Part shown: piece after piece, positions 105 through 21,224 of the stretch | Layout of the letters: each line of letters begins with the position of its first letter | How positions within the stretch are numbered: position 1 is the stretch's first letter | Origin: a virus | Virus record (IMG/VR): IMGVR_UViG_3300047177_000015 | Location: 1 to 21,703 of that record | Direction: 5' to 3' (one strand) | Length of the DNA: 21,703 bases | The notes under the pieces: generated by a model | Told to the model about the DNA's origin: nothing | Databases searched by the model: none | The model's input: the letters and a program-made list of their open reading frames with translations, nothing else | Translations under genes and position numbers: made by a program

Positions 105-107
105 GGT

Positions 108-620: not shown

Positions 621-638
621 AGCGCTGGCACCTAGTGC

Positions 639-702: not shown

Positions 703-718
703 CACCCCCACAGGGGGC

Positions 719-1744: not shown

Positions 1745-1759
1745 GGTAGATGCTCCCCT

Positions 1760-2608: not shown

Positions 2609-2611
2609 GGG

Positions 2612-5461: not shown

Positions 5462-5471
5462 CGTCGTGCTC

Positions 5472-7001
5472 CTACGTTGTAGACTTGAAAGGTGCTGGCT
5501 CGGCCGGTTCCTTGTCAGCAGGTTCGCCAGCCTTGGGGTCAGCCCCTGGCTGCATCAGAACTGCTTCGGCTTGCATGTCTGCTTGCTTCTTATCCTCTTC
5601 GTATTTGCTCTGCAGCTCTTGCACATCCAACAGCAACGGGTTGCTGAACAGCAGTTGGAACGCCCTGTCATTAAAGCTGTCGCACACCCATTGAATAAGC
5701 GTTGCCTTATTGATTGGGTCCATCTCCGGCAGCAGCACCTCGAGCACGGCAATCACCGCCTTCAGCTTGACGTCCACCACCTTGATCTTCTCGCTGTCCG
5801 GCTCCGTCAGCAATGACGGCCAGGATGCTTCAAAGCTATTCTTCCATTCCGCGAACGCCGTGAGAAACGGCTTATCCTTGTATTCAGGAAACTCGTTTTG
5901 CAGCGTCGCATAGAACTCCGGTGTCCACGCGCGATACATAACGATTTGATCCATGAACTTGTAGAGCGGGTCCATAGCTTCGCGCTCACGATCAATGTAT
6001 CGCGCAACGGCCTTAGCGTCCTCTGTGCCCTCGGCCAGCCCGGACGCGTAGGTCTCTTCGTGCAGCATTTGCGCTGGCATGGGCACGGCAGCGGCAATGT
6101 TATCCAAGATATTCTTGCGAGCTGCGTTGTGCGCGCCGTCGATATTTTGCAGGTTAAGACTTTGGATGTCCTCGTCCGGCGCTGCAATGGACAGCACGTT
6201 GTTCGTGCGCCCCTGCTGTAGCAGCGCACGCTTTACGCCAGCGATGGCGCTCATCATGTTGTCAATGATTGAACCGGGTGGTTTGAGCTTGGCGATCAGC
6301 AAACCGGCCTTGCGCGTCACCATGTCGTCTGTGATCATGGATTGCACAAACGACTTCAGCGGGAACAACGCCCGCTGATACACGCTGCGACCAACGAACC
6401 CAAACGCGGACGACGTGTAAGACAAGTAAACCGGATTTTCGTTCTGAATGATAACCACGCGATTGCGCGCATAGGGTTTGCCAGCAACAGACACCGACAC
6501 CGTTTTGAGGAAGTCCGCTGCGTTGGGGTCTTGGTTCATTACTGCGCTACCCGCCGTATTGAGCGGGTCAAACACGCTGAAGTAGATTTCGGCCGCGCCC
6601 AGCTTGGCGAAGTTCAGCGGTTTGCCGGGGTCTTTGTTTAGCTCGCCTAGTGCGATGGCGGACAAACCATACACACGGGACAACACTCGGCAATTCAAAA
6701 TGTGCTTGCTGCACCCCAACGCGTTCCAAGTGTCGTTGAACGCCTTGGCAACGCTGTCGCCCGGTGCCCTGCCGACCACGATCTCGCGAGCCTGTGACTG
6801 CGCCAGCAACACGGGGGCTGAAGCAATTTTCTCACCCAGCGGGTGATAGAGGTAGATGACTTTGCAGAGCTGATAGCTGGGGTCGTAGCCTGGCACAATG
6901 TCGTCGGACAGCAGCAGCTCTTGCAGAGCCGTGCCAAGCTGTGATCCATCAGCAGTAAGGAACGCAGACCCCGTAGGCGCTGTGCCGAGACTACCACTCA
7001 T
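5472..7001 (-). CDS. Portal protein, DUF1073-like
   Basis: A 509-residue protein of portal size at the head of the capsid module. Sequence features that recall DUF1073-type portals are an N-terminal region with SDDIVPGYDPSYQLCKVIYL, a following HPLGEKIASAPVLLA segment, and a long central helical part including AAVPMPAQMLHEETYASGLA with the surface loop. The C-terminus is acidic and proline-rich (DPKAGEPADKEPAEPAPF), probably disordered. Portals form the dodecameric DNA channel at one head vertex and dock terminase. I chose ATG at 7001, two bases after the TAG of the 1133-residue gene, instead of a GTG at 7040 that would overlap it by 37 bases. Neither start has a strong ribosome binding site. 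Confidence 0.75.
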   Translation of the reverse strand: MSGSLGTAPTGSAFLTADGSQLGTALQELLLSDDIVPGYDPSYQLCKVIYLYHPLGEKIASAPVLLAQSQAREIVVGRAPGDSVAKAFNDTWNALGCSKHILNCRVLSRVYGLSAIALGELNKDPGKPLNFAKLGAAEIYFSVFDPLNTAGSAVMNQDPNAADFLKTVSVSVAGKPYARNRVVIIQNENPVYLSYTSSAFGFVGRSVYQRALFPLKSFVQSMITDDMVTRKAGLLIAKLKPPGSIIDNMMSAIAGVKRALLQQGRTNNVLSIAAPDEDIQSLNLQNIDGAHNAARKNILDNIAAAVPMPAQMLHEETYASGLAEGTEDAKAVARYIDREREAMDPLYKFMDQIVMYRAWTPEFYATLQNEFPEYKDKPFLTAFAEWKNSFEASWPSLLTEPDSEKIKVVDVKLKAVIAVLEVLLPEMDPINKATLIQWVCDSFNDRAFQLLFSNPLLLDVQELQSKYEEDKKQADMQAEAVLMQPGADPKAGEPADKEPAEPAPFKSTT

Positions 7002-7003
7002 TA

Positions 7004-10000
7004 CTACTGCACCGTGCTGCAGACGGTGGGCGTGCTGCACGACACCGACAGCGACTGATGCGCTGTGTTCAGCGTCACGCTGGCCGCGCCGTTGATGGTG
7101 CCGCCGCTGGGTGCCGCGATGGTGAACGCCGTGCCGCCAGCCGCCGTGCCGCCGATGTCGGCGAAGGCGTAGCGATGCCGCAGCATCGGCTGCGCCGGCA
7201 TCGACACCGCCACAGCCGTCGCCGCGCCGTAGTTAAAGTCCAGCTCACTGTCGCTAAGCTGCACCGCCTGCGTCGCGCCCGAGGTCACGATGCGCGGCGC
7301 GGAGGCGAAGCTGGGCGCGCTGAACTCCATCTGCGCGGAGTTGGCGTTGTAGGTATCTTCGTAAGCCTTGATGCTCAGATGGCTGGCGTGTGCGACGCAA
7401 GCGCCGCCATAAGGGCCGGTGCCGTTCTGGCCGCCTTGCTGGCAGGATCCGAACGCCTCATAGCCGGTCTCCATCGGCGGCAGCAGCGGCTGAGTGCCGG
7501 TAAACTGCGTCGCCTCGCTGCGCTGGGTGTTGCTGTCCAGGTAGAACGAGAACAACGCGCTCCCGACGCCGGTCTGCGCCGAGGTGATGAGCGGCTGATA
7601 GTGGCCGCCGAACGTTTCGACGTTGCCGTCGAAGGCTGGCTGCCCGGTGGTCAAGACGCCGTTCGTCGTCAGCACGTAGCCATGCGTCCCGAGCACGCCG
7701 GCGAAGGTCAGATTCGTCAGATAGGACCCGTTGGTTGCCAGCACGACCGGAATGCCGGTGTCGGTAATCGGGTAGAACGAGTGATAGATCGCCACCGTGA
7801 CCGCAGCACTGCTCAACGTCGCCGTCGCCGGGTCGCTCAGCGTCAGAGTTTTGCCGTCCGCACTCACCGGATTCGTGGACACGCCAGGTTTGCCGATGGT
7901 GGTGTTCAGGCAGTTCGTGGAGGCGGCGATCATCCACGGGCAGGCAGCACTCCCCGCTCCGGGAATGCTGATCTGCCCGTAGCTATGCCCCTGATTGGCC
8001 AATGAGGCGCTGCACACCAGCGAGGTTTGACCGCTAGTGATGGAGCACGTGCCCGATGATGTGAAATTGTACAGGTAGCCACCCACCGTGTAGTCGGTCC
8101 CGTTCGTGCCCTCCACCAGTTCGTTGCCGGGATAGCCGGTCAGCATCGTGCTCGTCTGGCCGCCGATCCCGACAGGCGTTCCATAGGCACCGTTGCCGAT
8201 TCCCATGATGAGGTAGCCGCCGAGGTTCGACCAGAAGGTCGACGCGCTACCGGCCACGCTCTTGGTCTGGAATCCGAGTTCCCAGCCCATGACCGGCACA
8301 GGCCACTGGAATGGCGGCGTGGCGATGGCGCCGGTCGTGTAGTTTGCCCCCATGCCCTCCACTTCATCGGCACGGCGCAGCGGCCCGCGTTCGATGTCGA
8401 CTCCGGTCTGATACAGGATGTCGGTGCGGCCGGTGTCGAGCAGCCCGATGTGGCCGCCGCTGGCAAGCGTTCCCCACGTGTTGCTCTGCGGGTTGTAGTA
8501 GTCGCCGCTCTCCACCATCGACGCCTCCCAGCGCGAGATGAACAGCATGTTCTCTTGCTGGGCATAGCTGGCGTTGCTGGTGTTCCCCTGCGGATTGAAG
8601 GCCGCGGAATTGATGATGATGTCTGGGTTGCTGCCGCAAGTGGTCCGCCACGCCGCCGTCTGGGTATAGGCGATGACGTTCCACCATGCCGACACGTTCA
8701 AGTTCACAAGGTCATTTGAAAACCGGATTGTCAGCACGTCCGGGCAGTCGGCCTTGATGTAGCTGATCCACTGCGAACCCTGGTTCGTATACCACTGCGA
8801 AATGCTGGTCAGGTTGGTCGGCGGCACACCCGAGGCAGCGCCGATCACCGGCCCCGCCGGGTCGAGTTCCGACATCGTGGTAGCGCCGATGCAGCGGTTG
8901 TTCACGGTGATTCCAGGGAAGCCCAGAGGCGAACCCGCATTGGCGGTCTTGTAGCTCTCCTCGATGACTTTCGACAGCGAGCCGAAGAACGCCAGATGGT
9001 TGCTGCTCGGCGAGCACATGCTGTCGCCGGTCGCGTCCACCACGACGGGGCCGCCGGCCAGCGCCTTGCTGACCGCCTGCCGGTAGTTTTCGTTGCGGTT
9101 AAGCGTCACCGGAATTGCTTGCCGCGCGAATGGCGGCGTGCAGCGCGCGGCGTTGCGAAGGAATTGCGAGCCGATCGGATAGACGATGCGGCCGCCGTTG
9201 ACCGATCCATCGTTGCACAGCAGCACGTTCGCCACCGCCGCCGCGCTGGGCGTCACCCAGAACGGCTTGACTCCTTGCGGGAACGTGACTTCCGAGTAGC
9301 CGCTGTTGACCGCGTAGCTGAACAGCGAGATCAGCGCCGCGCTGTCGTCTGTGCCGCAGCGCAGTTCGTTGGGCGTCTGATGCCTCGTCACTCCGGCATT
9401 GGACGCCAGGGTGACGTGGAACGGGTCGGTGTAGCCGCTGATGGCGGCAATCAACTCCGCCCCAGCCGCGCCGATATTGCCGATGTCACAGGTCTGCCCG
9501 ACCATCGCCGGGGTGAACACCATCGGCCCGAACGACAATTGCACCGCATTGGCATTGGACAGCGTGTAGGGAGGTGCTGCCGCCAGCGTCGCGACGCTGC
9601 TGGTCGCCGACAGCACCGTGGTGGTGAAGTCCGCATTCGTGCCGGTCGGGTCGTGAATCGTTATCTGGATGCTCGATCCATCTCCCGCCGTCGTGTCCGA
9701 ATACAGGTAGGTCGCGTTGAACGCCCCGGCTGGGCAAGTCAACAGATTGCCGGACGTGGAGCAGAAGTTCAGCTCCATCGTGTTCTCGGCATTGTCTTGC
9801 GAGGCGGTGAACGGGGTGCTGGAGTTGCTGTAGGACCCGAACACCGAACCGCCGGTCGACGGCAGGAATGCCAGCCCGCTCGTGAAGGTGCCGCTGCTGC
9901 TCGGAGCGGGGTTCAGCGTCACCGTGTAGGGTCCTGTCCCGGTGATTGCGGTCACGATTGGGTTGTTCGACCATGTGGTGCCGGTTGCGAGCGAGACGGC

Positions 10001-10405
10001 TTTGATGCCGTTGCCCGCGACGTTGCCCAGCAGATAGCTCGGCAGGGTCACGCCGGACGGCAGCGTGATGACTGCCTGCGCGGTGCCGTTGGTGGTCACG
10101 CTGACGGTGCCCGCAGCGTAGACATAGGCCGCAGTGATGCCGAGGCTGGGCGAGCCGCTCGTTGTTTCGGTTGAGGACGGGTCCGACTGCGCGTTGGCGG
10201 CGATGGTCGGGCCGCCGAACGTGGCGGAGTCGAGCGGCGTCAACACGGTCGGCACCGCGCCCAGCGTCACCCGCCCAGCCGCGCCCGAGGCGACGAGGCC
10301 CGGCACCGTCTGGGTGGCGACTCCCGGCGCAGGCGCGGGCAGCGGCCCGCCAAACGCCGGAGGGGCACACACCAAGACTGTGGCGGCGAGGATCCATGCG
10401 CGCAT
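7004..10405 (-). CDS. Large exported tail-spike-like protein with SGNH-hydrolase-like motifs (1133 aa)
   Basis: The protein begins with a Sec-type signal peptide (MRAWILAATVLVCAPPAFGG, cleavage likely near residue 20) followed by a proline/alanine linker. The first 440 residues are Ser/Thr/Gly-rich beta sequence as in tail fibres. From about 455 a catalytic-type segment carries G460-D461-S462-M463, the block I pattern of SGNH/GDSL esterases, and S563-N564-D565, like block III. A clear DxxH block V is not seen. Such domains in tail spikes remove acetyl groups from surface polysaccharide. The C-terminal half is beta-rich with several cysteines. Start ATG follows AGGGGA at 8 bases. It comes directly after the 140-residue exported protein. 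Enzyme role is inference. Confidence 0.75.
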   Translation of the reverse strand: MRAWILAATVLVCAPPAFGGPLPAPAPGVATQTVPGLVASGAAGRVTLGAVPTVLTPLDSATFGGPTIAANAQSDPSSTETTSGSPSLGITAAYVYAAGTVSVTTNGTAQAVITLPSGVTLPSYLLGNVAGNGIKAVSLATGTTWSNNPIVTAITGTGPYTVTLNPAPSSSGTFTSGLAFLPSTGGSVFGSYSNSSTPFTASQDNAENTMELNFCSTSGNLLTCPAGAFNATYLYSDTTAGDGSSIQITIHDPTGTNADFTTTVLSATSSVATLAAAPPYTLSNANAVQLSFGPMVFTPAMVGQTCDIGNIGAAGAELIAAISGYTDPFHVTLASNAGVTRHQTPNELRCGTDDSAALISLFSYAVNSGYSEVTFPQGVKPFWVTPSAAAVANVLLCNDGSVNGGRIVYPIGSQFLRNAARCTPPFARQAIPVTLNRNENYRQAVSKALAGGPVVVDATGDSMCSPSSNHLAFFGSLSKVIEESYKTANAGSPLGFPGITVNNRCIGATTMSELDPAGPVIGAASGVPPTNLTSISQWYTNQGSQWISYIKADCPDVLTIRFSNDLVNLNVSAWWNVIAYTQTAAWRTTCGSNPDIIINSAAFNPQGNTSNASYAQQENMLFISRWEASMVESGDYYNPQSNTWGTLASGGHIGLLDTGRTDILYQTGVDIERGPLRRADEVEGMGANYTTGAIATPPFQWPVPVMGWELGFQTKSVAGSASTFWSNLGGYLIMGIGNGAYGTPVGIGGQTSTMLTGYPGNELVEGTNGTDYTVGGYLYNFTSSGTCSITSGQTSLVCSASLANQGHSYGQISIPGAGSAACPWMIAASTNCLNTTIGKPGVSTNPVSADGKTLTLSDPATATLSSAAVTVAIYHSFYPITDTGIPVVLATNGSYLTNLTFAGVLGTHGYVLTTNGVLTTGQPAFDGNVETFGGHYQPLITSAQTGVGSALFSFYLDSNTQRSEATQFTGTQPLLPPMETGYEAFGSCQQGGQNGTGPYGGACVAHASHLSIKAYEDTYNANSAQMEFSAPSFASAPRIVTSGATQAVQLSDSELDFNYGAATAVAVSMPAQPMLRHRYAFADIGGTAAGGTAFTIAAPSGGTINGAASVTLNTAHQSLSVSCSTPTVCSTVQ

Positions 10406-10408
10406 GAT

Positions 10409-10831
10409 CTAATTCCCCTGGCTGACGGAAACCACGGCCGCCGCCGTGCAGAAGACATGCACGCTGGCCAGCGTCACGCCGTCCGACAGAACGCTGGGCG
10501 GCGGTTCTACGATGTTCCACACGTAGCCGCCCGGTATCGGCGTGGAGGTCGCAGTCGCCGCCGTGCTGTCATCGGTCATGGTGCATGTCGCGTTGTTCGG
10601 GACGATCCGCAGCACGCGCGCGAACACCACGCTTGCCGTCGTGCCGGTCGGGGCCGTCCAGACCAAGGTGGACACACTGGCCGGCACGCTGACAGACACG
10701 TCCCCCTGCATGGTCTGGCCAGGGGCCAGCGGTGTGATCTCCATGCCGTTGTAGACCGCGCCCGCCTGTGCCCATGCGACGGCAGGGAGCAGGCACAGGG
10801 CCGCCGCCAGCGTCTTCATCGTGCCGCCCAT
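10409..10831 (-). CDS. Small exported protein between two spike genes (140 aa)
   Basis: A 140-residue protein with a clear N-terminal signal peptide: MGGTMKTLAAALCLLPAVAW followed by A and a likely cut before QAG. The mature part is beta-rich (GQTMQGDVSVSVPASVSTLV) with two cysteines in ATCTM and VFCTAA, perhaps forming a disulphide, which suits a periplasmic destination. The ATG has AGGAG at 7 bases and overlaps the end of the 755-residue gene by 16 bases; the gene is followed by the 1133-residue gene after 3 bases. No named family is recognised. It could be a chaperone or accessory subunit of the flanking exported spikes. Confidence 0.75.
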   Translation of the reverse strand: MGGTMKTLAAALCLLPAVAWAQAGAVYNGMEITPLAPGQTMQGDVSVSVPASVSTLVWTAPTGTTASVVFARVLRIVPNNATCTMTDDSTAATATSTPIPGGYVWNIVEPPPSVLSDGVTLASVHVFCTAAAVVSVSQGN

Positions 10832-13083
10832 GTGGTAGCTCCTGTCGACCGAGGAAGGAATGATGCCGAACCACCCGATACGATCACGGCGGCGGCGTTG
10901 GTGGCCCGTCCGTCGATAGCACTCCCAACAACAGGCCAGACATCGACCGGGCCAGAACTGCGGTTCACCACCACTTCAGCGCACGCTTGCGCCGGCTCGG
11001 CGAACAACCGCACGCCCCCAGCGCCGGCAGTGACCGTATTCGTGCAAGCGGTCAGCAACGTAGCCGCCGACTGCGCGCCGCTGTTGGCCACGCCATCCGC
11101 GTAGTAGGTCCCGGCCGCCGCCACGCTTGCATAGGTCAGCGGCGCGCCACACGACCCGATGCCGACCACGCCGCTCACATCGCCCCCGAGGCACGGCAAG
11201 CCGGCCAGCGCCGGTAGCTTCAACGCGGTCGAACCGGAAGCAGTGTCCACAGCTACCTCGCTGATCAGCGCCGACGCCGCCGGGTCCTCCGGGTAGATGT
11301 TGGTCGTGAACAGGTTCCAGACATCATCCGTGAAGTGCGCCGTCGTCATCCCGTCGGACACATAGGCCGCGCCGGAACCGTTCATGATGGTATTCGAGAT
11401 TTGGACAGCGCCGGAAAGCAGTTGCAGCCCGACACCCCCAGCAACTATGTTGTTCCGTAGCTGGGTGCCATGGATCGTAACGCCCGTTGCGGTGTTGCTC
11501 GAATTGGCAACTAGTTGGAAGGCGACGGACGACGTATAGCCATCGGTGAAGTTGATCGTGGCCGCATTATCGGTGACGTTGTATCCAACATTGATGGCAT
11601 CATTCTTGTCTGCTCCATCATAGGAGCAGTTCTGGCAGAACAAGCCGTTCAGCCCGACGCCGGCATGGAAGGCGACGGCGTGGGACAGGGAGAACAAGTT
11701 AAGCGCCTCGATATTTTCTGAATTGGTGAAATAGAACCCATCCCCTGCACGATAGCCGGTGTCGAAGTTCACCGTGCCCCCGGAGGTATAGGCGACGTTG
11801 CTGAAGGTGGCCGTGCCGGTGCCGTTAGCCGTTGCCAGGCTAGATGCCACGATGGCGCTGCCCGCCGGCATGATCCCCAGCACCGTGGCGGCCGGCAACC
11901 CCGCCGTAGCTACATGCATCCCTGGCACGATGCCTGTCATGCTCGACAGACCAGAGATGACCGAGGAGCCGAGATGTGTGGTGCCGGTGACGGATACCGG
12001 AGCCGTCTGCGATCCCTGCAGATCGATATGCGTGCTGTCCACCACCGTGACCGGGTACGGATAGTTGGCCGCAGCCATGCCGCCCACGCCTTGGATCGTG
12101 GCCCGCGAGCCGCTCGCGATCGATGCGTCGATCGCCGAAGCAAGCGTCAAGCGGATCAGCCCCGACCCGTTGTCCGCCGCGCCCGCGACGCTGTAAGAAG
12201 GAAGCGAGAACGTTTGGTTCTCGGTCAGGAACGGACCGCACTCGACATCCTTGAGCCGGCTCGGGTCCGTCGAGCCGTCGACGTGCAAGCAGGACGTATC
12301 ATCCAGGAACAACCCGTCCGCGTAGAACCGTGGATAGTTGGAAGCGATGCCTAGCGCAAACCCATAAACCCCGACATGGCGAAGGTGCACGTCCTTGCCC
12401 GTGGTGGTGATCCCCGTGCCGGCAAAGCTGGCGACCAACGCATAATTCTGCCCCGCGCTCGTTGGAGTAATCAGCCCCGCCTGCATGACGGAGACGTTTT
12501 CCATCGTGGTCGATGCGCCGAAGACCAGGGAGTAGGCTGGCGCGAATTGGATGACGCACGGAAGCGTGCTCCACGCGAAATTGTAGGGCTGCCCGAAGTT
12601 GTCCCCTACGCATTTCAGCGTCACGCCGCGAGGCACCGTGATGTTGCCGCTGGTTGCCAAGTAAACGGCCGGTGCGAGGACCAACACCTGCCCAACGTCA
12701 TTACCGATGCTGCCCGCCACCGAGGCGTTGAGTGCGTTCTGTAAGCACGTGCGCGCATCTGTCACCCCATCGTGCGGGCAAGAAAAATCATCCGCGTGAG
12801 GCTCGTCTGACGCACGTGACGCAAGCGTCCGCGCAGTACTGCCGACCGTGCCGATGGTGGTATTAGTCGAAGCAAGACCCCCAACTGCAACTGCTCCCAC
12901 ACTCGGAGCGGTCAACGTGACCACCGGCCCGGTCTGGCCGTTGACGGATGTGATGGTGCCGCCCCCGCCGCCGCCTCCGCCACCCCCAGGCGTGACCTGT
13001 TGGGCGTGCGCGGCCGCCGACGTGCAGACGCAGAGTGCGTATATCAAACCAGCACGGAGAATTCTCATGTTTTGGCTTTTCAT
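10816..13083 (-). CDS. Exported tail-spike-like protein with pectate-lyase-type beta-helix (755 aa)
   Basis: The N-terminus is a signal peptide (residues 6-27, MRILRAGLIYALCVCTSAAA then HA, cut before QQ). It is followed by a ten-glycine linker (33-42) and the fibre motif TSVNGQTGPVVTLTAPSVGA. From about residue 97 (DFSCPHDGVTDARTCLQNAL) the sequence has the opening of a right-handed beta-helix of the pectate-lyase type, continuing as repetitive beta sequence to the C-terminus. Spikes with this fold bind or cleave surface polysaccharide. Start choice is unclear: ATG at 13083, or ATG at 13068 that shares its CATG with the plus-strand gene; neither has a good ribosome binding site. Confidence 0.75.
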   Translation of the reverse strand: MKSQNMRILRAGLIYALCVCTSAAAHAQQVTPGGGGGGGGGGTITSVNGQTGPVVTLTAPSVGAVAVGGLASTNTTIGTVGSTARTLASRASDEPHADDFSCPHDGVTDARTCLQNALNASVAGSIGNDVGQVLVLAPAVYLATSGNITVPRGVTLKCVGDNFGQPYNFAWSTLPCVIQFAPAYSLVFGASTTMENVSVMQAGLITPTSAGQNYALVASFAGTGITTTGKDVHLRHVGVYGFALGIASNYPRFYADGLFLDDTSCLHVDGSTDPSRLKDVECGPFLTENQTFSLPSYSVAGAADNGSGLIRLTLASAIDASIASGSRATIQGVGGMAAANYPYPVTVVDSTHIDLQGSQTAPVSVTGTTHLGSSVISGLSSMTGIVPGMHVATAGLPAATVLGIMPAGSAIVASSLATANGTGTATFSNVAYTSGGTVNFDTGYRAGDGFYFTNSENIEALNLFSLSHAVAFHAGVGLNGLFCQNCSYDGADKNDAINVGYNVTDNAATINFTDGYTSSVAFQLVANSSNTATGVTIHGTQLRNNIVAGGVGLQLLSGAVQISNTIMNGSGAAYVSDGMTTAHFTDDVWNLFTTNIYPEDPAASALISEVAVDTASGSTALKLPALAGLPCLGGDVSGVVGIGSCGAPLTYASVAAAGTYYADGVANSGAQSAATLLTACTNTVTAGAGGVRLFAEPAQACAEVVVNRSSGPVDVWPVVGSAIDGRATNAAAVIVSGGSASFLPRSTGATTWAAR

Positions 13084-13225
13084 TGTCTTTGCTTGCTTCG
13101 GTCTGGTTGGTTTGCTGCTCTACGCAGCGGCGCGCGTAGCATGGGCGCTACTGCGCTTAGCAGTCTACCTAATACCAATCTTCTGTGTGGGTATGGCGCT
13201 ATGGGCGCTAGTGCTGGCCCTGTAG
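13067..13225 (+). CDS. Small two-span membrane protein on the opposite strand (52 aa)
   Basis: Translation from ATG 13067 gives 52 residues, MFWLFIVFACFGLVGLLLYA to ...FCVGMALWALVLAL, with two hydrophobic spans (about 2-22 and 31-52) separated by AARVAW. GGAGA at 13056-13060 lies 6 bases before the start. A longer reading frame runs upstream, but that part is antisense to the signal-peptide region of the spike gene. Its first 17 bases overlap the 5' end of that divergent gene. Size and hydrophobicity fit a holin-like or immunity-like phage membrane peptide. No function can be assigned. Confidence 0.5.
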   Translation: MFWLFIVFACFGLVGLLLYAAARVAWALLRLAVYLIPIFCVGMALWALVLAL

Positions 13226-13242
13226 CATAGCTAATTCAAGCC

Positions 13243-13302
13243 AAACGGCACACCGCCAGGCCGTTTTAGGGGCGGGGCTGGGGGTGTAGTAGCGGCCAGC
13301 GG
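13243..13302 (+). repeat. Dispersed intergenic repeat, copy C
   Basis: A hairpin AAACGGC (13243-13249) / GCCGTTT (13260-13266) with loop ACACCGCCAG is followed by a G-rich block and GTAGTAGCGGCCAGCGG. The same order of blocks occurs at 639-702 and, inverted, at 20123-20189. It lies between the ends of the convergent plus-strand membrane gene and the minus-strand HTH gene. Confidence 0.7.
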
Positions 13303-13313
13303 CCAAACTGGCC
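13301..13313. terminator. GC-rich hairpin between convergent genes
   Basis: GGCCA-AAC-TGGCC forms a short stem inside a larger nested inverted repeat that spans 13291-13324 (AGCGGCC to GGCCGCT). It lies just past the stop of the minus-strand HTH/zinc-ribbon gene. There is no U-tract, so intrinsic termination is unproven; it may be a 3'-end-protecting structure. Confidence 0.35.
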
Positions 13314-13322
13314 TGGCGGCCG

Positions 13323-13619
13323 CTAATAGGAGCTGGTTTGGTAGACGTCCATCTGCTTGCACGAGCGGCAGACGAAGTTGCCCTTTGAGATTGGCGTAAA
13401 GGGCTTCTGACAGCACAAGCATTTCCGATCGCCTATGGTCAGCTTAGATGGCGGTGTGGCCTGCGACGCGGAACTGCGCCTGTAGCGCTGTAGCACGTAG
13501 CGGACCTGAGTGACGGTCAATCCCAAATCCTGCGCAACGTCGGTGACGGTGCGCCCGGGAGTAGCGCTGGAGAGAATACGCTCAATCCTCTCCAGCGGTA
13601 TTAGCTGCCCTATCGGCAT
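13323..13619 (-). CDS. HTH and zinc-ribbon DNA-binding protein (98 aa)
   Basis: The first half (about residues 15-48) reads as a helix-turn-helix: SSATPGRTVTDVAQDLGLTV followed by TQVRYVLQRYR. The second half has four cysteines in CLCC (about 67-70) and CRSC (about 83-86), a short treble-clef or zinc-ribbon pattern. The start ATG overlaps the upstream TGA (TGATG). As the last gene before the structured gap, it could be a regulator of late genes or a DNA-packaging accessory protein. Targets cannot be inferred. Confidence 0.75.
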   Translation of the reverse strand: MPIGQLIPLERIERILSSATPGRTVTDVAQDLGLTVTQVRYVLQRYRRSSASQATPPSKLTIGDRKCLCCQKPFTPISKGNFVCRSCKQMDVYQTSSY

Positions 13620-13972
13620 CAGTTTGGTTTGACGCCTTGCTCGACCATTTGATCAAGCATCTGCTGCGCTTGTAGATGGTCCACCACAATCTCGGCAAAG
13701 GTCTTGGCGATTGCGTTGGCCACGGCCAGCCGTTCCAACGGTTCCAAATTTTGGACCATGTGGAGCAGCGTGGACGTGGTAAGGTTGATTAAAGGCGCGG
13801 CGTTAGTGTGTTCGCCGATGTCGTAGCAGCGCGTGCCAGTGCCGGTATTATCGTAGAACACCAGCAAGGATGCGGATTTGTCCGCGTAGCAGCCATTAGT
13901 CAAACCTTCCAGGAAGGTCTTTGCCGCCTTGGTCAGCGACGGCACACGCTCATTGTTACCGAGGACTAGCAT
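13619..13972 (-). CDS. Phage protein of unknown function (117 aa)
   Basis: A soluble protein of 117 residues starting MLVLGNNERVPSLTKAAKTF. It is predicted mixed alpha/beta with a helical end (LERLAVANAIAKTFAEIVVD followed by HLQAQQMLDQMVEQ). There are no signal peptide, membrane span or known motifs. It follows the acidic 207-residue gene by 2 bases and overlaps the HTH gene start, so it is co-translated with both. Unknown family. Confidence 0.75.
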   Translation of the reverse strand: MLVLGNNERVPSLTKAAKTFLEGLTNGCYADKSASLLVFYDNTGTGTRCYDIGEHTNAAPLINLTTSTLLHMVQNLEPLERLAVANAIAKTFAEIVVDHLQAQQMLDQMVEQGVKPN

Positions 13973-13974
13973 GA

Positions 13975-14598
13975 CTAGCCGCCGATTCCCACGCCTTTCT
14001 CATCACCGGATGCTTTTTTGATGCGCGGGCGCTCGAGTGCCTTGGGTTGACCTGCAACCTCCGACGCATCGGCGAGCTGGCCGCTGTCGAACTGGTAGTC
14101 GACTTCGTTCTCGTCCGTATTCTGACGATCCTCACCAACCGCGCCGACCACGGCATCCGGCTGTTGCTGCGCGTCCACGTCGCTGACGGCCTCGGTCGCG
14201 TCCTGGTAACCCGCATATGGGTGCGGTTCGTTTGGCTTATCCGGGCTGGCCGGATTCGGCTGGCCGGGGTAGCTGCCGGTGCTAGCCTCCTGGCCAGGGG
14301 CGACTTCTGTGCCGGGTGTGTCTGGACGCTTGTCGATCATCACCGTGCGCGGCCTGGCGGGTTGGTTGGCGCGTTCGGGGTGCGCAACCAGGTGCTCGAG
14401 TTCCGCGATGAGCGCACGGACGCTGTGACCCACGAACGCACGCGACACATCCAGCGCATGTTGCACGCCGGCCTGCCAGGTGTAGTTGTTTGCGACTGCT
14501 GCGGGGTCCGCCGTCGTGCTGTTGTCGGCCGGCTGCTGGAGAACTTCGTCGCCCTCGCGCACAACCGGGCCGGGGGTTGCAGTCATTGGATCGGACAT
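13975..14598 (-). CDS. Acidic, low-complexity phage protein (207 aa)
   Basis: The protein starts MSDPMTATPGPVVREGDEVL, with a good AGGAG site at 6 bases. Residues about 36-75 may be a short helical domain (NYTWQAGVQHALDVSRAFVG). The remaining two thirds are Asp/Glu/Gln/Pro-rich and most likely disordered, ending in a basic stretch (ALERPRIKKASGDEKGVGIG). Composition suggests a scaffold, inhibitor or linker protein, but position upstream of the head module is not diagnostic. No named family. Confidence 0.7.
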   Translation of the reverse strand: MSDPMTATPGPVVREGDEVLQQPADNSTTADPAAVANNYTWQAGVQHALDVSRAFVGHSVRALIAELEHLVAHPERANQPARPRTVMIDKRPDTPGTEVAPGQEASTGSYPGQPNPASPDKPNEPHPYAGYQDATEAVSDVDAQQQPDAVVGAVGEDRQNTDENEVDYQFDSGQLADASEVAGQPKALERPRIKKASGDEKGVGIGG

Positions 14599-14622
14599 TC
14601 TAACTCCTGTTGCCTTGTTGTG

Positions 14623-14886
14623 TTAGATAGCGGACTGATCATCGCCGATAGCGTGGACCGGCACGGTGTCCGGTGGGCCGGGCTTCTTGTTGCCATGCAG
14701 CAGCGCCCGCATGGACGCGTAGGGCATCGGCACCCACTTCATAATGCCGTTAAAGAAAACCCGACAAACAGGACGGTCGTGTTCGTCGGGTGTAAATTCA
14801 TCAGACACACCGACAGCGCTACGGGACATGTCGTAGCGCGTGCCGTCGACGTCGCGGAACGCGATACGTGTATCGTCGATATTCAT
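14623..14886 (-). CDS. Small phage protein of unknown function (87 aa)
   Basis: An 87-residue protein, MNIDDTRIAFRDVDGTRYDM at the N-terminus, with no membrane segment. Its ATG overlaps the TGA of the preceding 89-residue gene (ATGA), so translation is coupled. The central VCRVFFNGIMKWVPMPYASM has a compact beta/helix look. No function recognised. Confidence 0.7.
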   Translation of the reverse strand: MNIDDTRIAFRDVDGTRYDMSRSAVGVSDEFTPDEHDRPVCRVFFNGIMKWVPMPYASMRALLHGNKKPGPPDTVPVHAIGDDQSAI

Positions 14887-15152
14887 TTGATTTGCTCACT
14901 GTCCTCGACGTGCGCCAGCCGCGCATCGGGTAACACCGTTATACGGACAGCACGGAGAGCGCTGTCCCGTTCCTGCGCATCAAGCGCCAACGCATTTTCG
15001 CAGATTAAAGCAAGTGCTTCGTTGACGCGCGCCTTTGCTGTGTCCGGCGGTGTCTTGGCCAAGTGCTGCTGTTGGTAGTAGCGGTGCTGCTGTTGGTAGT
15101 AGCGGAATTGATCGCGGCGCATCTGGACGCAAACACGAAGATTGTTGCTCAT
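14883..15152 (-). CDS. Small phage protein with a YYQQQH repeat (89 aa)
   Basis: I use ATG 15152, giving MSNNLRVCVQMRRDQFRYYQ...; a longer upstream reading frame is antisense-free but overlaps two other genes. The start has GGAG 6 bases away and shares ATGA with the stop of the zinc-ribbon membrane protein. A 21-bp unit duplicated exactly at 15064-15084 and 15085-15105 encodes RYYQQQH twice. The rest is helical (AKARVNEALALICENALALD). Unknown function. Confidence 0.7.
   Translation of the reverse strand: MSNNLRVCVQMRRDQFRYYQQQHRYYQQQHLAKTPPDTAKARVNEALALICENALALDAQERDSALRAVRITVLPDARLAHVEDSEQIK
15064..15105 (-). repeat. Perfect 21-bp tandem duplication
   Basis: Two exact in-frame copies of 21 bp end in GGTAGTAGCGG. 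That last 11-base string also occurs in the dispersed intergenic repeat, possibly by chance. Confidence 0.85.
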
Positions 15153-15349
15153 TGCAAGCTCCACGCGACCAGCAGCCACAGCACCATACACACGATCGCC
15201 CAAAAGAAGACCGCCGGATGCGGGCCGGGCTTGCGCGCGTGCCAGCCACACGGGTTGCCTTTTCGCATCATGGTGTTGCAGTGAGGACAACGCTGCTGGT
15301 AGGTCGGTGGTGCGTTGACACACGGCGGCATCAGGTGCATCCGCTCCAT
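15149..15349 (-). CDS. Zinc-ribbon membrane protein (66 aa)
   Basis: Translation from ATG 15349, which overlaps the upstream TGA (TGATG), gives 66 residues. CPHC at 21-24 and C34-G-W-H37 could bind zinc. A single C-terminal membrane span (about 48-64, AVFFWAIVCMVLWLLVAW) follows a charged GWHARKPGPHP. The likely topology is N-terminus inside with a membrane-tethered zinc ribbon. A longer frame starting at 15463 is not used because its extra part overlaps the membrane-protein gene in another frame. Role unknown. Confidence 0.65.
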   Translation of the reverse strand: MERMHLMPPCVNAPPTYQQRCPHCNTMMRKGNPCGWHARKPGPHPAVFFWAIVCMVLWLLVAWSLQ

Positions 15350-15519
15350 CAGCCCCACCGTGCGAAAATGAGCCAGTCCCACCGTGCGAAAATGAGCGCC
15401 AGCACAAGGCTGGAGCACACGAACAGGACGAGAAACACGAACACCCACGGCACACCCCACCACGGCTCGCCGCGACGGGAGTATTGAATGCTCTTGCTTT
15501 CCTTTTGAAGTCCCAGCAC
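15349..15519 (-). CDS. Single-span membrane protein (56 aa)
   Basis: GTG at 15519 has GGAGGAG centred about 7-9 bases upstream, a much better site than the GTG at 15558. The protein is MLGLQKESKSIQYSRRGEPW with a span at about 20-44 (WWGVPWVFVFLVLFVCSSLV) and a short tail containing LIFARWDWLIFARWG. The repeated tail comes from a 20-nt duplication. A small phage membrane protein next to the terminase gene may be linked to lysis, but that is a guess. Confidence 0.65.
   Translation of the reverse strand: MLGLQKESKSIQYSRRGEPWWGVPWVFVFLVLFVCSSLVLALIFARWDWLIFARWG
15354..15397 (-). repeat. 20-nt direct repeat in the membrane protein tail
   Basis: CCCACCGTGCGAAAATGAGC occurs at 15354-15373 and 15378-15397, 24 bases apart, making the repeated LIFARW in the protein. 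Confidence 0.85.
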
Positions 15520-15561
15520 GTCGACTCCTCCTGTTTTTTCAGCTAACAGGATATACACGGC

Positions 15562-16881
15562 TCAGTAGCCGTCCACATTTCCGAGTGCGATGCTGATCGC
15601 GTAGCACCACGTATCAAGTAAATCGTCCGCGCGCTTAGCCGCGTCCTTGTCACCTAGTCGGAAACCAAACACTTGCGCCAGCAGGTGATTCCGCGTGGTA
15701 TCCTTGTATTGCACAATTTTGTTGTAGGCTGGCTCACTGATCTTGACAAGCCCCTGGTAGACGTAAGCGGACACGTTCAACGCCCGCTCGTCCTTACCCT
15801 TGGACGTCAGCTTCATGTCGATGCCTTGAACAGGGGCTTGCTTGCGCTGCATCTGCTGCACAAGGATAGCACCGGAGTTGACGTTCTCCACGAACACGCC
15901 CAGCGAGCCCATGCGCGACCCACACAGCTTGGATAACTCTTGCGTGCGCGCAATCACGTTAGGTATCCAATGCTCGAGCAGCGAACCCTCGATTTGAAGG
16001 ATGTCGTAGTCCAAGCACACCAGGCGCTGCCCGATATAGCGTGACGTCGCCCAATAGCTGACGGCTGTGCCGTCATTCTCACTGCCTGCTTTGACAGCGG
16101 TATCGACTACGGCAAACACACCGTCGCAAATCATCGGTAGCGGCGTGGGCAGTCCGTTGACCAGACAGCGCTCCAGCTCAAAAAACTGGATACCATGCCA
16201 GTCGACAAACTCGGCAAGATATTCCTGGCGCCACACAAGCGGGGGCTTAGCCTGATGTAGCCGCGCCAGCTCCTCAACCGGCATCCGAGGATTGCTGTGT
16301 GTTGGTGCGTGGTATTCGGCGAAGTCCAAGTCGCGCTGCGTGCAAACCTTGTAGAAGAAATTCTCGTCATCGATTCCGGCGGTGTTGCTGGCCACAATGA
16401 CGTTGCCGCAATAGTCCAGGAGCGTCGGTTCGATGCTGCGCTCCCAAATCGCCGTCATGTTGGGTTTGGCGAACGCGGCCTCGTCGATGAGGACCGTGTG
16501 GTATTTGCGGGAGCGGCCAGCGGCCTCGTCCTCAAGCGTCCAGAAATCAATAATACCACCGTGCTCGGTGCGCAGCACACCTTCGGTCTTGGAACTGCGC
16601 CGTAGTATCGGACCCAGCATCTGTCGCAGGTCTTCAAAGACCTCGGAAAGCCGCTTGTAGTCCGGCGCGAAGTAACCAATCAGTTTCTGCTTTGCGGCAC
16701 CGTCACCAGCGATGCACTCCAGCAGCGTAGTCTTACCCCACCGCCGTCCGCACCTGATGGACAGACGTCGGTGCTTCCTGGACATCCGGTAGGCTTCAAC
16801 CTGTGACGCATGAAGCGTCGGCAGCACAATAACAGCAGGTCCGTCATTCCTCGCTTGCTGCTTGTATCCCAGGGAGCTCAA
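15562..16881 (-). CDS. terL: Terminase large subunit (ATPase and nuclease)
   Basis: A 439-residue DNA-packaging motor. The ATPase domain has a Walker A variant C44-G-R-R-W-G-K50-T51, as is usual for terminases, and Walker B TVLIDE (129-134). The nuclease domain shows the acidic residues expected to bind metal: D260 (AVVDTAV), E332 (VFVENVNSG) and D423 (DDLLDTWCYAI). It uses a TTG start at 16881, overlapping the small subunit's TGA (TTGA). A GGCGG-like site is weak, so coupling with the upstream gene likely carries initiation. The protein cuts concatemers and pumps DNA through the portal. Confidence 0.92.
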   Translation of the reverse strand: MSSLGYKQQARNDGPAVIVLPTLHASQVEAYRMSRKHRRLSIRCGRRWGKTTLLECIAGDGAAKQKLIGYFAPDYKRLSEVFEDLRQMLGPILRRSSKTEGVLRTEHGGIIDFWTLEDEAAGRSRKYHTVLIDEAAFAKPNMTAIWERSIEPTLLDYCGNVIVASNTAGIDDENFFYKVCTQRDLDFAEYHAPTHSNPRMPVEELARLHQAKPPLVWRQEYLAEFVDWHGIQFFELERCLVNGLPTPLPMICDGVFAVVDTAVKAGSENDGTAVSYWATSRYIGQRLVCLDYDILQIEGSLLEHWIPNVIARTQELSKLCGSRMGSLGVFVENVNSGAILVQQMQRKQAPVQGIDMKLTSKGKDERALNVSAYVYQGLVKISEPAYNKIVQYKDTTRNHLLAQVFGFRLGDKDAAKRADDLLDTWCYAISIALGNVDGY

Positions 16882-17405
16882 TCGGGCAGGCCGCCAATGA
16901 TCTTCACTGCAACGCCGACGTTCGGGTCATTTGGATCGGGGTTCGTGTTGACCGCTACTTCCAAGTGCCGGTCACGCCACAGATCGGGACGACGGTTCTT
17001 CAGCCAGAAGATGCAGCTTGTCGGGTCCGGTGCATAGTGCTCAACGTATTCAGCGCGAACGATCTCACCACCTTTGGTACAAAAGATCTTTTCCACTTTG
17101 TGACTGTAACCTTTTGCACGGTGGAATAGCGATTTTGCTATGTAGGCGTCAGCATTTTCACGACCATCTTTTAAGGCATTGTCAAAAGATTGGTGTGCTG
17201 CACGCCATTTGTAAATCGTAACGATGTCCACCTGATGGAAGTTCGCGATCTCCTGATCCTTAGCACCCAACAGGCAAAGATTGTAGGTTTGAACATCCAT
17301 GTATGAATGGTATTCCGTGGGGCGGCCTAGCTTGTTGGCCTCCCGCTGCGCGACCTTGTCCTCAAAGGTCGGCCGCTTCAACTTTGTAATCACTGGTCGC
17401 TGCAC
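16878..17405 (-). CDS. terS: Terminase small subunit
   Basis: A 175-residue DNA-recognition subunit. It has a helix-turn-helix-like region (LCLLGAKDQEIANFHQVDIV followed by TIYKWRAAHQ, about 45-73), and the familiar phage pattern LFHRAKGYSHKVEKIFCTKG and CIFWLKNRRPDLWRD (about 90-145). Small terminases bind the packaging site and load the large subunit. The start is GTG at 17405, overlapping the NusG-like gene's TAG (TAGTG), with GGAG 8 bases before it. The large subunit follows with a four-base overlap. Confidence 0.88.
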   Translation of the reverse strand: MQRPVITKLKRPTFEDKVAQREANKLGRPTEYHSYMDVQTYNLCLLGAKDQEIANFHQVDIVTIYKWRAAHQSFDNALKDGRENADAYIAKSLFHRAKGYSHKVEKIFCTKGGEIVRAEYVEHYAPDPTSCIFWLKNRRPDLWRDRHLEVAVNTNPDPNDPNVGVAVKIIGGLPD

Positions 17406-17893
17406 TACAGGTACTCCACGTCGTTATAGTTCAATTCCAGGTTTGTTAGACTTCGGCCAAACAAATCGATAAACACATGCACGGACTTACGATCAACGCT
17501 GGACACTACACCTTGAAATGATGCAAATGGTCCGTTGACGATTCGAACAGTCTGACCAGGCACTACAGTGTAACGCGCTGGTGGTGGCTGTTGTTCGGGT
17601 TCAAGCATTCTATTGATTACAGCATCCGGGATCGGTGTGGGATGCTCGGGTGTCGTTGAGAACAACTTGCGCACACCAAACGTCGAACAGATTGGGCGCC
17701 AGCGATCACACTGTGGATCAAACTGGACAAATAGGTAGCAGCCCAGCAGGCTTGCCAGGGATTCTTTCTTACGCTTGTTCACTATCACACGCGTCGGCAA
17801 GAACACCGTGTAGCCCTGGCGCTGTAGCTGTTGCTCAGCCAGGAATTCTTGCTTGACGTGTGATTGAACGCAAAACCACTTCGGAAATCTCAT
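17405..17893 (-). CDS. NusG/RfaH-family transcription factor
   Basis: At 162 residues it is as long as E. coli RfaH. Residues 1-95 fit the NGN domain (WFCVQSHVKQEFLAEQQLQR, LGCYLFVQFD), which contacts RNA polymerase. Residues about 108-162 are a KOW domain (VPGQTVRIVNGPFASFQGVV and FGRSLTNLELNYNDVEYL). NusG paralogues increase processivity and suppress termination, often at specific sites. Being the first gene of the packaging and structural operon, it is well placed as an antiterminator of late transcription. No good ribosome binding site precedes the ATG. A perfect hairpin is 47-71 bases upstream. Function as an antiterminator is inferred from family and position. Confidence 0.88.
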   Translation of the reverse strand: MRFPKWFCVQSHVKQEFLAEQQLQRQGYTVFLPTRVIVNKRKKESLASLLGCYLFVQFDPQCDRWRPICSTFGVRKLFSTTPEHPTPIPDAVINRMLEPEQQPPPARYTVVPGQTVRIVNGPFASFQGVVSSVDRKSVHVFIDLFGRSLTNLELNYNDVEYL

Positions 17894-17939
17894 ACTTTGC
17901 CCACGGCTACCGCACTCAACGGCCGGAAGCGGCGCGTTG

Positions 17940-17964
17940 AGTTAAGCTGGTTTCCAGCTTAACT
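17940..17964. promoter_or_regulatory. Perfect 11-bp inverted repeat upstream of the NusG-like gene
   Basis: AGTTAAGCTGG-TTT-CCAGCTTAACT, an 11-bp stem with a 3-base loop, 47 bases upstream of the NusG-like start. It could be an operator, or an RNA hairpin at the start of the late transcript. The T-tract on either strand is too weak for a normal terminator. Confidence 0.6.
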
Positions 17965-17968
17965 TTGG

Positions 17969-17998
17969 GTTGTAGCACTTCTTTTGCCAGGCATGCAA
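17969..17998 (-). promoter_or_regulatory. Candidate sigma70 promoter for the late operon
   Basis: On the minus strand TTGCAT (17998-17993) and TACAAC (17974-17969) with an 18-base spacer. It would start RNA near 17962, placing the perfect hairpin at the extreme 5' end of the message. Both boxes are imperfect. Confidence 0.25.
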
Positions 17999-18149
17999 GT
18001 GTTAGTTTATTCAAACATCCCTGGCTAAAGTGAAGGTTGGGAAGCACGGTCGGAATGGATGAGTGTGCGGAGCGTCAGCGTAGCACACCGTCTATTCGAC
18101 GTGCTGCACAACCCGACGCGCTTCGCGCGTCGAAGCACCGTTCACGCTG

Positions 18150-18177
18150 TTGTCAGACCTGCTATGAAAGCAATAAT
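18150..18177 (+). promoter_or_regulatory. Candidate sigma70 promoter for the plus-strand small genes
   Basis: TTGTCA (18150-18155) and AATAAT (18172-18177), spacer 16, each one base off consensus. Transcription would run through the two hairpins before the gene at 18375. Confidence 0.4.
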
Positions 18178-18191
18178 TTTCCACACCCTAT

Positions 18192-18235
18192 CCCCCCTAA
18201 AGACCTTCCCTATAGGGGAAGGGAAGAAAGGGGGG
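18192..18235. promoter_or_regulatory. Nested inverted repeat
   Basis: CCCCCC (18192-18197) pairs with GGGGGG (18230-18235) around CCTTCCC (18204-18210) / GGGAAGG (18216-18222) with loop TATAG. It lies between the candidate promoter and the first plus-strand gene. Confidence 0.55.
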
Positions 18236-18240
18236 CGTGC

Positions 18241-18271
18241 GCGCACGCGGCAGTGTACTACCCGCGTGCGC
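18241..18271 (+). terminator. GC-rich hairpin in the plus-strand leader
   Basis: GCGCACGCGG (18241-18250) pairs with CCGCGTGCGC (18262-18271), 11-base loop. A T5 run lies at 18285-18289, too far for a classic terminator. It may be an attenuator. Confidence 0.35.
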
Positions 18272-18374
18272 GTAGGCTGTTGAATTTTTGACTTTGAATA
18301 AAAATAGTTGTTGCATTCCGTTTAGCGACACGTATATCGCTCCTGTAGGCCGACCCTGGCCAAGTGAGGACGAC

Positions 18375-18839
18375 ATGGTCGCCCTGTTGGAGAGCATCGA
18401 GACTGCCAGCGAAGCGGAGCGCCGTGAGGCGTTCGCGCGGCTGAACTATGAGTTCGGTCGGTCGCAGTCGAAAACACGCGTCTACGACGATTTCGAACAT
18501 GAGGTGTTCGACGCCGTGTGCTCCGTGCTTGCATCGAGGATGCCCATTCACAACTGCGCAAACTCAATGGGCGTGCTGGCATTCAAAGATTCTTGCGCGA
18601 TAGCGGCCAATTTCATCCGGGCGGCGTCGGCCGTGGTGCTGCGCAAGCCAGATCGGGAAACGCTGCTGCGCCTGGTCATGCGTTCGCTGCGCGCGCACCT
18701 CGAGCTGGTGGGCGTGCCGCCATCGGCGACGGCCATGCTTCAGAACATGAACGTCCTGTGGTTTGCAGTTGACAAGGACTATCCGGGCTACGCGGAGGCC
18801 CGGATGCTGCACTTCATTCTAAATCGGGTTCCCGTATAA
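18375..18839 (+). CDS. Phage protein of unknown function (154 aa)
   Basis: I use ATG 18375, which has GAGGA 4 bases before it. A TTG at 18288 would add 29 residues but has no ribosome binding site and lies in an AT-rich, promoter-like stretch. The protein is helical and soluble: MVALLESIETASEAERREAF, SKTRVYDDFEHEVFDAVCSV, and a C-terminal helical bundle ending FILNRVPV. No family is recognised. It heads a plus-strand group of small genes read away from the late operon, and may be early. Confidence 0.65.
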   Translation: MVALLESIETASEAERREAFARLNYEFGRSQSKTRVYDDFEHEVFDAVCSVLASRMPIHNCANSMGVLAFKDSCAIAANFIRAASAVVLRKPDRETLLRLVMRSLRAHLELVGVPPSATAMLQNMNVLWFAVDKDYPGYAEARMLHFILNRVPV

Positions 18840-19576: not shown

Positions 19577-19606
19577 GTGGGGCGGGATCTTACGATCCCG
19601 CCCCAC
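19577..19606. terminator. Strong hairpin between convergent genes
   Basis: GTGGGGCGGGATC (19577-19589), loop TTAC, GATCCCGCCCCAC (19594-19606): a perfect 13-bp stem. It follows the truncated DUF4031-like gene and the end of the minus-strand zinc-ribbon gene, so it can serve both. T-tracts are weak on both strands. Confidence 0.65.
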
Positions 19607-20352: not shown

Positions 20353-20426
20353 AAAGGAGACATAACATGACCGACACGGAAGCACATCGGCGCATTGCGG
20401 CCTACGCCGCGTCTGACCGGACCGGC
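20353..20426 (+). repeat. 74-bp exact direct repeat spanning ribosome binding site and gene start
   Basis: AAAGGAGACATAAC, the ATG and the first 20 codons are identical at 20353-20426 and 21207-21280, 854 bp apart. This marks the unit of gene duplication. Confidence 0.9.
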
Positions 20427-21224
20427 TACCTCGATCTCCGCGGATGCACGGGCCTGACCACGCTGGCCGGCATGGGCAGCGTGGGGGGTGACCTCTACCT
20501 CCGCGGATGCACCCGCCTGACCACGCTGTCCGGCATGGGCAGCGTGGGGGGTGGCCTCTACCTCTCCGGCTGCACGGGCCTGACCTCGCTGGCTGGCATG
20601 GGCAGCGTGGGGGATGACCTCTACCTCCGCGGATGCACCCGCCTGACCACGCTGTCCGGCATGGGCGACGTGGGGGGTGACCTCAACCTCGACGGATGCA
20701 CAGGCCTGACCTCGCTGGCCGGCATGGGCAGCGTGGGGGGTAACCTCTACCTCCGCGGATGCACCCGCCTGACCACGCTGTCCGGCATGGGCAGCGTGGG
20801 GGGTGGCCTCTACATCTCCGGCTGCGCGGGCCTGACCACGCTGGCCGGCATGGGCAGCGTGGGGGGCGGCCTCGACCTCTCCGGCTGCACGGGCCTGACC
20901 TCACTAGCCGAGGATGAGCGTGAGCGGTTTGCGGTGCCGGTAGTGCCGCACATCGACGCCGCAATCGCTGCCGCCATCGGTGACGGCGGCGCGCTGGACA
21001 TGGCCACCTGGCACACCTGCGAGACGACGCATTGCCGCGCCGGGTGGGTGATCGCCTTGGCCGGCGAGGCGGGGGCAGCCCTGGAGCGCCGGGTTGGACC
21101 GGCCGGAGCCGGCGCGCTGATCTACCTCGCGTCCAGGCCCGGCAAGCCGATCCCGGACTTCTACGCTAGCAACGAGGACGCGCTCGCCGACATCATGGCC
21201 TGCGCCAAAGGAGACATAACATGA
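20367..21224 (+). CDS. Leucine-rich-like solenoid protein with a conserved HC-motif C-terminus (285 aa)
   Basis: The ATG follows AAAGGAG at 7 bases. Residues 1-21 are a leader (MTDTEAHRRIAAYAASDRTG). From 22 to about 181 there are eight 21-residue units of the pattern LxLxGCTxLTxLxGMGSVGG, a leucine-rich-repeat-like solenoid, probably with a Cys ladder along one face. Residues 182-285 form a separate domain with WHTCETTHCRAGWVIALAGE, then GALIYLASRPGKPIPDFYAS and a helical DALADIMACA. This C-terminal type recurs in phage proteins with repeats, by memory. The last codons are also the next gene's ribosome binding site (KGDIT, with ATGA overlap). Function unknown; interaction role inferred. Confidence 0.85.
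   Translation: MTDTEAHRRIAAYAASDRTGYLDLRGCTGLTTLAGMGSVGGDLYLRGCTRLTTLSGMGSVGGGLYLSGCTGLTSLAGMGSVGDDLYLRGCTRLTTLSGMGDVGGDLNLDGCTGLTSLAGMGSVGGNLYLRGCTRLTTLSGMGSVGGGLYISGCAGLTTLAGMGSVGGGLDLSGCTGLTSLAEDERERFAVPVVPHIDAAIAAAIGDGGALDMATWHTCETTHCRAGWVIALAGEAGAALERRVGPAGAGALIYLASRPGKPIPDFYASNEDALADIMACAKGDIT
20430..20909 (+). repeat. 63-bp tandem repeat array, first gene
   Basis: Seven complete 63-bp in-frame units and part of an eighth, highly similar at DNA level with two alternating variants (SGCTGLTSLA and RGCTRLTTLS types). Near identity suggests recent expansion by recombination. Confidence 0.9.

Follow-up and report, generated by a model that had tools for sequence, protein, structure and literature searches.

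On balance, tailed phages appear to have taken up NusG paralogues on at least two occasions for use as dedicated late antiterminators. In one group the protein would act with a conserved leader RNA of its own, a two-stem hairpin with a GUGC-NNNA-GC tail, to override an intrinsic terminator before the terminase genes. It would be the NusG-type equivalent of lambda Q and would form, next to LoaP, a second pairing of a NusG paralogue with an RNA. The other lineage, on the RfaH side, is represented by the window (the whole stretch of viral DNA analysed, 21,703 nt), where the paralogue would head its own late operon and be recruited in its own leader. The antitermination systems known from phages are of the N, Q or RNA-only (put) type. 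A sequence-only reading of the window had noticed a NusG/RfaH-like gene with a 5′ hairpin and proposed a dedicated antitermination system. The observation is confirmed and the interpretation partly supported: a sister group of phages, with its RNA element and terminator, points strongly to such a system and makes the best case for NusG-based late antitermination, rather than the window hairpin.

NusG-family protein and late unit of the window

The window protein is a two-domain member of the NusG family (NGN plus KOW) of the specialised-paralogue type. Both domains, already made out in the sequence-only reading, exceed their Pfam cut-offs: NusG/NGN covers residues 5-97 (E=4.9e-16; 59.5-60.3 bits versus a cut-off of 22.2) and KOW the residues given in Table 1 (2.7e-8; 33.7 bits versus 22.3). 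Over its full length (residues 4-160) the protein matches phrog_6386, a 'transcription antiterminator' in PHROGs (2.5e-20). The best curated model is the RfaH equivalog TIGR01955, at 78.6 bits under its cut-off of 144.5; scores for the housekeeping nusG equivalog (58.6 bits, cut-off 135.7), the UpxY subfamily model NF033644 (55.6 bits, cut-off 100) and the LoaP model NF033641 (30.1 bits, cut-off 125) are likewise under the cut-offs. The housekeeping secE-nusG-rplK context is absent and terminase genes adjoin instead. Chains of NusG and RfaH match the predicted structure, whose confidence is modest (pLDDT 61.6). Single-protein scans for closer relatives returned near-identical contigs only.

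Phage proteins were aligned to E. coli NusG and RfaH and compared at the positions named in section 10 of PMC7593976. The window protein has F at the RfaH F56 position, as found in 9 of 13 aligned phage proteins, and Y at Y54. Checked in this way, the RNA polymerase-contacting residues, whose loss would have counted against the earlier reading, are kept, and since the F56-type contact is among them the protein is expected to bind RNA polymerase. Its Rho-contact loop is L-F-G, of the NusG type; because this Rho/S10-contacting LFGR loop is retained, Rho binding may persist. RfaH is described in the same section as having lost its I-F-G Rho loop. At the RfaH autoinhibition positions E48, I93 and F130 the window protein carries A, I and V, and it is predicted to lack RfaH-like autoinhibition. 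K10 and R73, which in RfaH contact ops DNA, are not kept. The label 'RfaH-like' thus holds for the F56-type contact but not for autoinhibition, ops contact or loss of the Rho loop.

The gene leads by overlapping codons into both terminase subunits, as had been read: its stop overlaps the terS start by 1 nt and terS overlaps terL by 4 nt. A second contig (G001) shares 17,555 bp with the window with one mismatch and thereby extends the one-strand block to ~34.4 kb, which fits a place at the head of a long late operon. A long plus-strand ORF in G001 overlaps a minus-strand ORF and was treated as a shadow. The transcript may begin earlier than the leader, since two small, unmatched minus-strand ORFs (18197-18397 and 18258-18551) sit upstream.

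Table 1. Features of the late unit and its leader, in window positions
Feature	Position	Strand	Remarks
Candidate promoter TTGCAT-18-TACAAC	17969-17998	-	TGC before second hexamer; by eye
Perfect 11-bp hairpin, AAA loop	17940-17964	-	arms 17940-17950 and 17954-17964, 100% complementary; 3-nt loop
Second hairpin	17914-17942	-	8-bp outer stem, inner GCCG/CGGC
ops-like octamer GCGGTAGC	17906-17913	-	12 nt before start codon; weak lead
NusG-family paralogue gene, 162 aa	17405-17893	-	first gene of late unit; ATG start
NGN domain (PF02357)	17603-17881	-	over curated cut-off
KOW motif with GPFASFQGVV	17465-17560	-	residues 112-143; then LFGR loop
terS, terminase small subunit	16878-17405	-	phrog_309, 2.5e-41
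terL, terminase large subunit	15562-16881	-	phrog_2, 2e-26
Remainder of late unit within window	1-15558	-	one strand; 16.5 kb more in G001
Portal	5472-7040	-	
Head morphogenesis	4378-5235	-	
Capsid-like	719-1744	-	

Three further gene regions of the window were recorded. Two large minus-strand proteins of 1133 and 755 aa (7004-10405 and 10816-13083) have no Pfam or PHROG match and lie between terL and portal; they may be receptor-binding proteins, for which this site would be unusual. In the head gene cluster, a minus-strand gene at 2612-4381 fuses a NUDIX domain to long charged repeats (KDAEEKERED), and a nudix gene at the equivalent place is annotated in Rac-SA53 and was recognised by eye in L077. 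On the opposite strand, 20367-21224 (+) encodes leucine-rich-like repeats of ~20 residues (GCTGLTTLAGMGSVGG), and its C-terminal part corresponds to phrog_31265.

Leader of the window

The perfect 11-bp hairpin noted earlier is present 46 nt upstream of the NusG-like ORF; it may serve in recruitment, as an operator or to stabilise the 5′ end of the mRNA. It adjoins a second hairpin, with which it competes for 3 shared nt. Perfect hairpins with a stem of at least 11 and a loop of 3-8 number two in the window, against a mean of 0.07 in equally long order-1 Markov sequences, where such a hairpin turned up in 4 of 60; the longest perfect stem of the window is a separate 13-bp hairpin at 19577-19606 (GTGGGGCGGGATC/GATCCCGCCCCAC). 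For the whole 96-nt leader the folding energy is -35.5 kcal/mol (z -3.56), a stability equalled by 0 of 200 shuffles. The fold also contains a third stem, and the GGG at 17900-17902, near the start codon, is paired. A transcript from the by-eye promoter would open with the 11-bp hairpin; a promoter scan missed this candidate and gave none on the minus strand. A scan of 17300-18700 for intrinsic terminators found none, leaving no obvious stop near the leader for the protein to override.

The octamer GCGGTAGC occurs three times in the window against 1.02 expected. It is also present in the E. coli waaQ leader, where this core is the RfaH ops site, yet the DNA-contacting residues of RfaH are not kept in the window protein. 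A T7-like sequence, CCCTATAGGG, at 18208 was dropped, being present in one copy and also found once in 22 of 100 shuffles.

Conservation of the 11-bp hairpin in relatives, for which the earlier reading had proposed a search, did not emerge. An exact search of IMG/VR found it in two near-identical contigs only, its 17-nt core occurs in 9 of 135 loci compared, all nine of the window type, and it is absent from L014, L018 and L066. Its confinement to near-identical contigs means that conservation could not be shown. This lack in other NusG phages suits a reading in which a phage repressor or activator binds the hairpin as DNA, the 25-bp palindrome being its operator at the promoter, while the NusG-like protein acts generally on elongation and uses no leader signal; a perfect palindrome a few bases downstream of the by-eye promoter would be well placed for that. 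The unusual stability of the whole leader RNA, which has two more paired elements (second hairpin, third stem) and exceeds the needs of an operator, makes this reading unlikely, though a serious one. It is improbable, too, that the 5′ hairpins serve to stabilise late mRNA or to control translation of the first gene. Such roles would agree with a hairpin that forms the very start of the transcript and with the closing of the predicted fold near the start codon, but RNase protection is unsupported and the promoter is only a candidate, with no minus-strand match in the scan.

NusG-like genes before terminase and the sister-group RNA element

All nine named tailed phages of 39-55 kb (phi3LM21, phi2LM21, PPF1, Rivra, vB_MseS-P1, Nsp-JY10, vB_LagS-V1, MinM1 and ppBjS10J-1), drawn from protein matches in a phage collection, have a NusG-like gene directly ahead of the terminase genes or separated from them by no more than 3 small genes. 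The records of PPF1, Rivra and LagS-V1 start at or near terminase, so that gene order was followed from one end of the record to the other; a separate step identified terS in MinM1 and both terL and portal in ppBjS10J-1. Over all loci, the window included, the terS genes beside a NusG-like gene belong to families phrog_309, 4044, 1482 and 57. Among 35 non-identical TerL-related viral contigs, many of them fragments, three have a NusG-like gene (L014, L018 and G012), beside terS of phrog_4044, 309 and 1482. A scan with the window TerS gave 43 loci, three of them near-identical to the window; none of the other 40 has a NusG-like gene, and 31 of these 40 have at least 700 nt of upstream sequence.

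Of four huge-phage records the gene-order survey took in one; Salmonella, Acinetobacter, Listeria, Staphylococcus and Enterococcus records and the remaining fecal fragments lie outside it. MT836236 and MT836476 were set aside as phage cases, being bacterial nusG-ribosomal protein loci, as was MaAM05, a secE-nusG-rplK-rplA locus. MW495066, MT836236 and MT836476 are bacterial nusG-ribosomal protein loci filed as phage, and contaminants of this kind would distort any count of NusG genes in phages. The 636-kb huge phage LR756504 has a NusG-like gene (L073 3977-4537), and no terminase was recognised by eye within 4 kb of it. A GGTCGAAAGTYYRGA-like motif stands just before terS in Rivra (L054 ~4690), MseS-P1 (L056 ~4537) and JY10 (L057 ~4788), with a partial form in LagS-V1, and is perhaps a packaging site.

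Folding of the gaps around the NusG-like genes revealed a common hairpin 3′ of the gene in phi3LM21, phi2LM21 and Rivra. The element has the form CCCUGA-CAG-[YCUC n6 GAGR]-...-UCAGGG, with a tail AGUGC-NNNA-GCUAUG, and is followed by an intrinsic terminator and then terminase; L005:5626-5689 is an example and 87 further phage loci carry it. The phages of this sister group are mostly rhizobial, and in phi3LM21 the order is cI, cro, replication, NusG-like gene, element, then late genes. A passage search of PMC5537653, a paper that describes phi2LM21 and phi3LM21, found neither 'antitermin' nor 'anti-termin'.

Two scans linked the element to the gene. The first, a pattern search of IMG/VR that made no use of the protein, gave 49 stretches, 52 with the three known ones. 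The closing arm is present in 43, and a NusG-like ORF ends 64-127 nt upstream in 41 of these; the two exceptions have just 142 and 23 nt of upstream sequence. The nine stretches that lack the closing arm, taken as chance matches, have no NusG-like gene. The 43 copies include repeats and comprise 31 distinct segments. The 41 proteins fall into 11 clusters at 50% identity, so the RNA has been kept despite wide divergence of the protein. The second scan used the compensated outer stem CCUUGA/UCAAGG and left the inner stem unconstrained. The tail motif occurs in 54 of its 67 stretches, 47 of them with a NusG-like gene 105-128 nt upstream and the other seven with at most 197 nt of upstream sequence; the 13 tailless chance matches have none. 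Over both scans, the gene precedes the element by 64-128 nt in 88 copies and is missing from nine, all with less than 200 nt of upstream sequence, against 0 of 22 chance matches that have it. A covariance model run on the second scan matched 54/54 tail-bearing stretches and 0/13 tailless ones. Rfam has nothing at the element in the seven loci scanned.

The inner stem reaches at least 4 bp in 34 of the 35 distinct inner segments of the second scan, compared with 38% of shuffles. All five inner pairs are changed on both sides, giving 35 covariation cells versus 10.6 in shuffled data (0/500 as high); the first scan gave 21 cells versus 6.0 (0/500), with most left-arm letters fixed by the search pattern. 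A terminator-like site lies 3′ of the element in 36/43 copies from the first scan and 45/52 from the second (44 starting at 61-78 nt, one at 143), against 19/260 shuffled controls. A terminator at the early/late junction is also what one would see if element and terminator were just the 3′ end of an early operon and the late genes had their own promoter. That reading is improbable: a simple terminator has no need of a conserved two-stem element and conserved tail 60-75 nt ahead of it, and every copy that could be assessed has the element linked to a NusG-like gene.

Bacterial genomes contain few matches to the element (2/398 in Pseudomonadota, 5/397 in one order). G146 alone scores high (65 bits), with a NusG-like gene and terminase, and its element is identical in sequence to that of contig L181 from the second scan; the remaining matches, at 22-27 bits and with neither gene, were taken as chance. 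As for the window, the covariance model (R1) rejects the element there, with a best score of 10.2 bits (E 0.27) within a gene and 5.3 bits (E 7.5) in the leader. A tail-only position-weight matrix ranked a site in the window leader 15th of 43,376, a score reached in 389 of 20,000 shuffles, and gave a combined p of 0.026 over 12 NusG-flanking regions of non-element phages; this test was chosen post hoc, and neither result is claimed.

A FastTree of 45 proteins, with a small reference set and rooted on two housekeeping NusGs, places the element-linked proteins (35/35) in one group (support 0.76). The window protein groups with those of L018, MinM1, L066, ppBjS10J-1, LagS-V1 and L014 and with E. 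coli RfaH (support 0.986). The position before terminase seems to have more than one origin, since the proteins form two tree groups and the window lacks the element. The gene order, for which the earlier reading had proposed a search in other phages, is thus found in at least two NusG lineages. The window probably represents the second, without the sister RNA and with a putative leader signal.

Proposed mechanism and known systems

The window gene probably encodes a specialised NusG paralogue that pushes host RNA polymerase through the phage's own late operon. The family of the protein, the order of the genes, the ~34 kb of late genes on one strand and the structured leader are observed, and from them the following course can be inferred. 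Late transcription would begin near 17,962, and the nascent leader hairpins, perhaps together with a pause at the ops-like GCGGTAGC, would load the protein onto RNA polymerase. Short transcripts could supply the first-gene product, which would then load on later polymerases and travel with them, suppressing pausing and premature termination in a feed-forward loop as in UpxY operons. In the sister group the gene closes the early operon, and hairpin and terminator both stand between it and terminase; the most likely role of its product there is thus to bind the hairpin and allow terminator read-through into the late genes. This group is read as a NusG-based late antitermination switch with a LoaP-like mechanism and a Q-like position, which suggests a late-gene switch different from the textbook types. 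That the protein instead works in trans against host transcription, as an antagonist or decoy of Rho/NusG, with its place before terminase a matter of timing only, would accord with the NusG-type LFGR loop but is very doubtful given the recurrence of that place in unrelated phages and the linkage of the sister gene to a leader RNA and terminator.

UpxY and the survey of NusG paralogues are covered by PMC7819879 and PMC7315117, and the literature considered also includes PMC6391919, PMC6370827 and PMC12607645. In searches that excluded bioRxiv and most subscription papers, no description of a NusG paralogue with the role of a late antiterminator in phages came up. UpxY proteins of Bacteroides capsule operons, as described in section 14 of PMC7819879 and in parts of PMC7315117, are encoded at the start of the operon that they serve and act in its 5′ leader. 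The window gene likewise starts its presumed target operon, but would serve phage late genes and not a capsule. The window protein resembles E. coli RfaH and plasmid ActX-type proteins in its best-scoring model, its tree group and F at F56, and its leader has a candidate ops-like octamer; it differs in that its gene does not stand alone, its Rho loop is NusG-like, and E48/F130 and K10/R73 are missing. The evolution of RfaH is treated in section 10 of PMC7593976, which notes rfaH-like genes on prophages.

LoaP of Bacillus, in the excerpted text of PMC12691694, is a NusG paralogue that works with a small leader hairpin and an intrinsic terminator ahead of a long operon. This layout of paralogue, leader hairpin and terminator is that of the sister phages, whose RNA element differs in sequence and has a conserved tail. 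In the window, by contrast, no UNCG-type loop was seen and the leader has no terminator. The pairs found here would be the second case of their kind and are directly testable. If the proposal is true, a class of phages in which a NusG paralogue and a dedicated leader RNA work together would link paralogue evolution to late control, and would offer many natural protein/RNA pairs for studying how such a paralogue selects its operon.

In phage lambda, Q lies at the end of the early operon, followed by a terminator and the late genes. The sister NusG-like gene occupies the same position. Q and N are unrelated proteins, whereas the phage protein here is a NusG paralogue.
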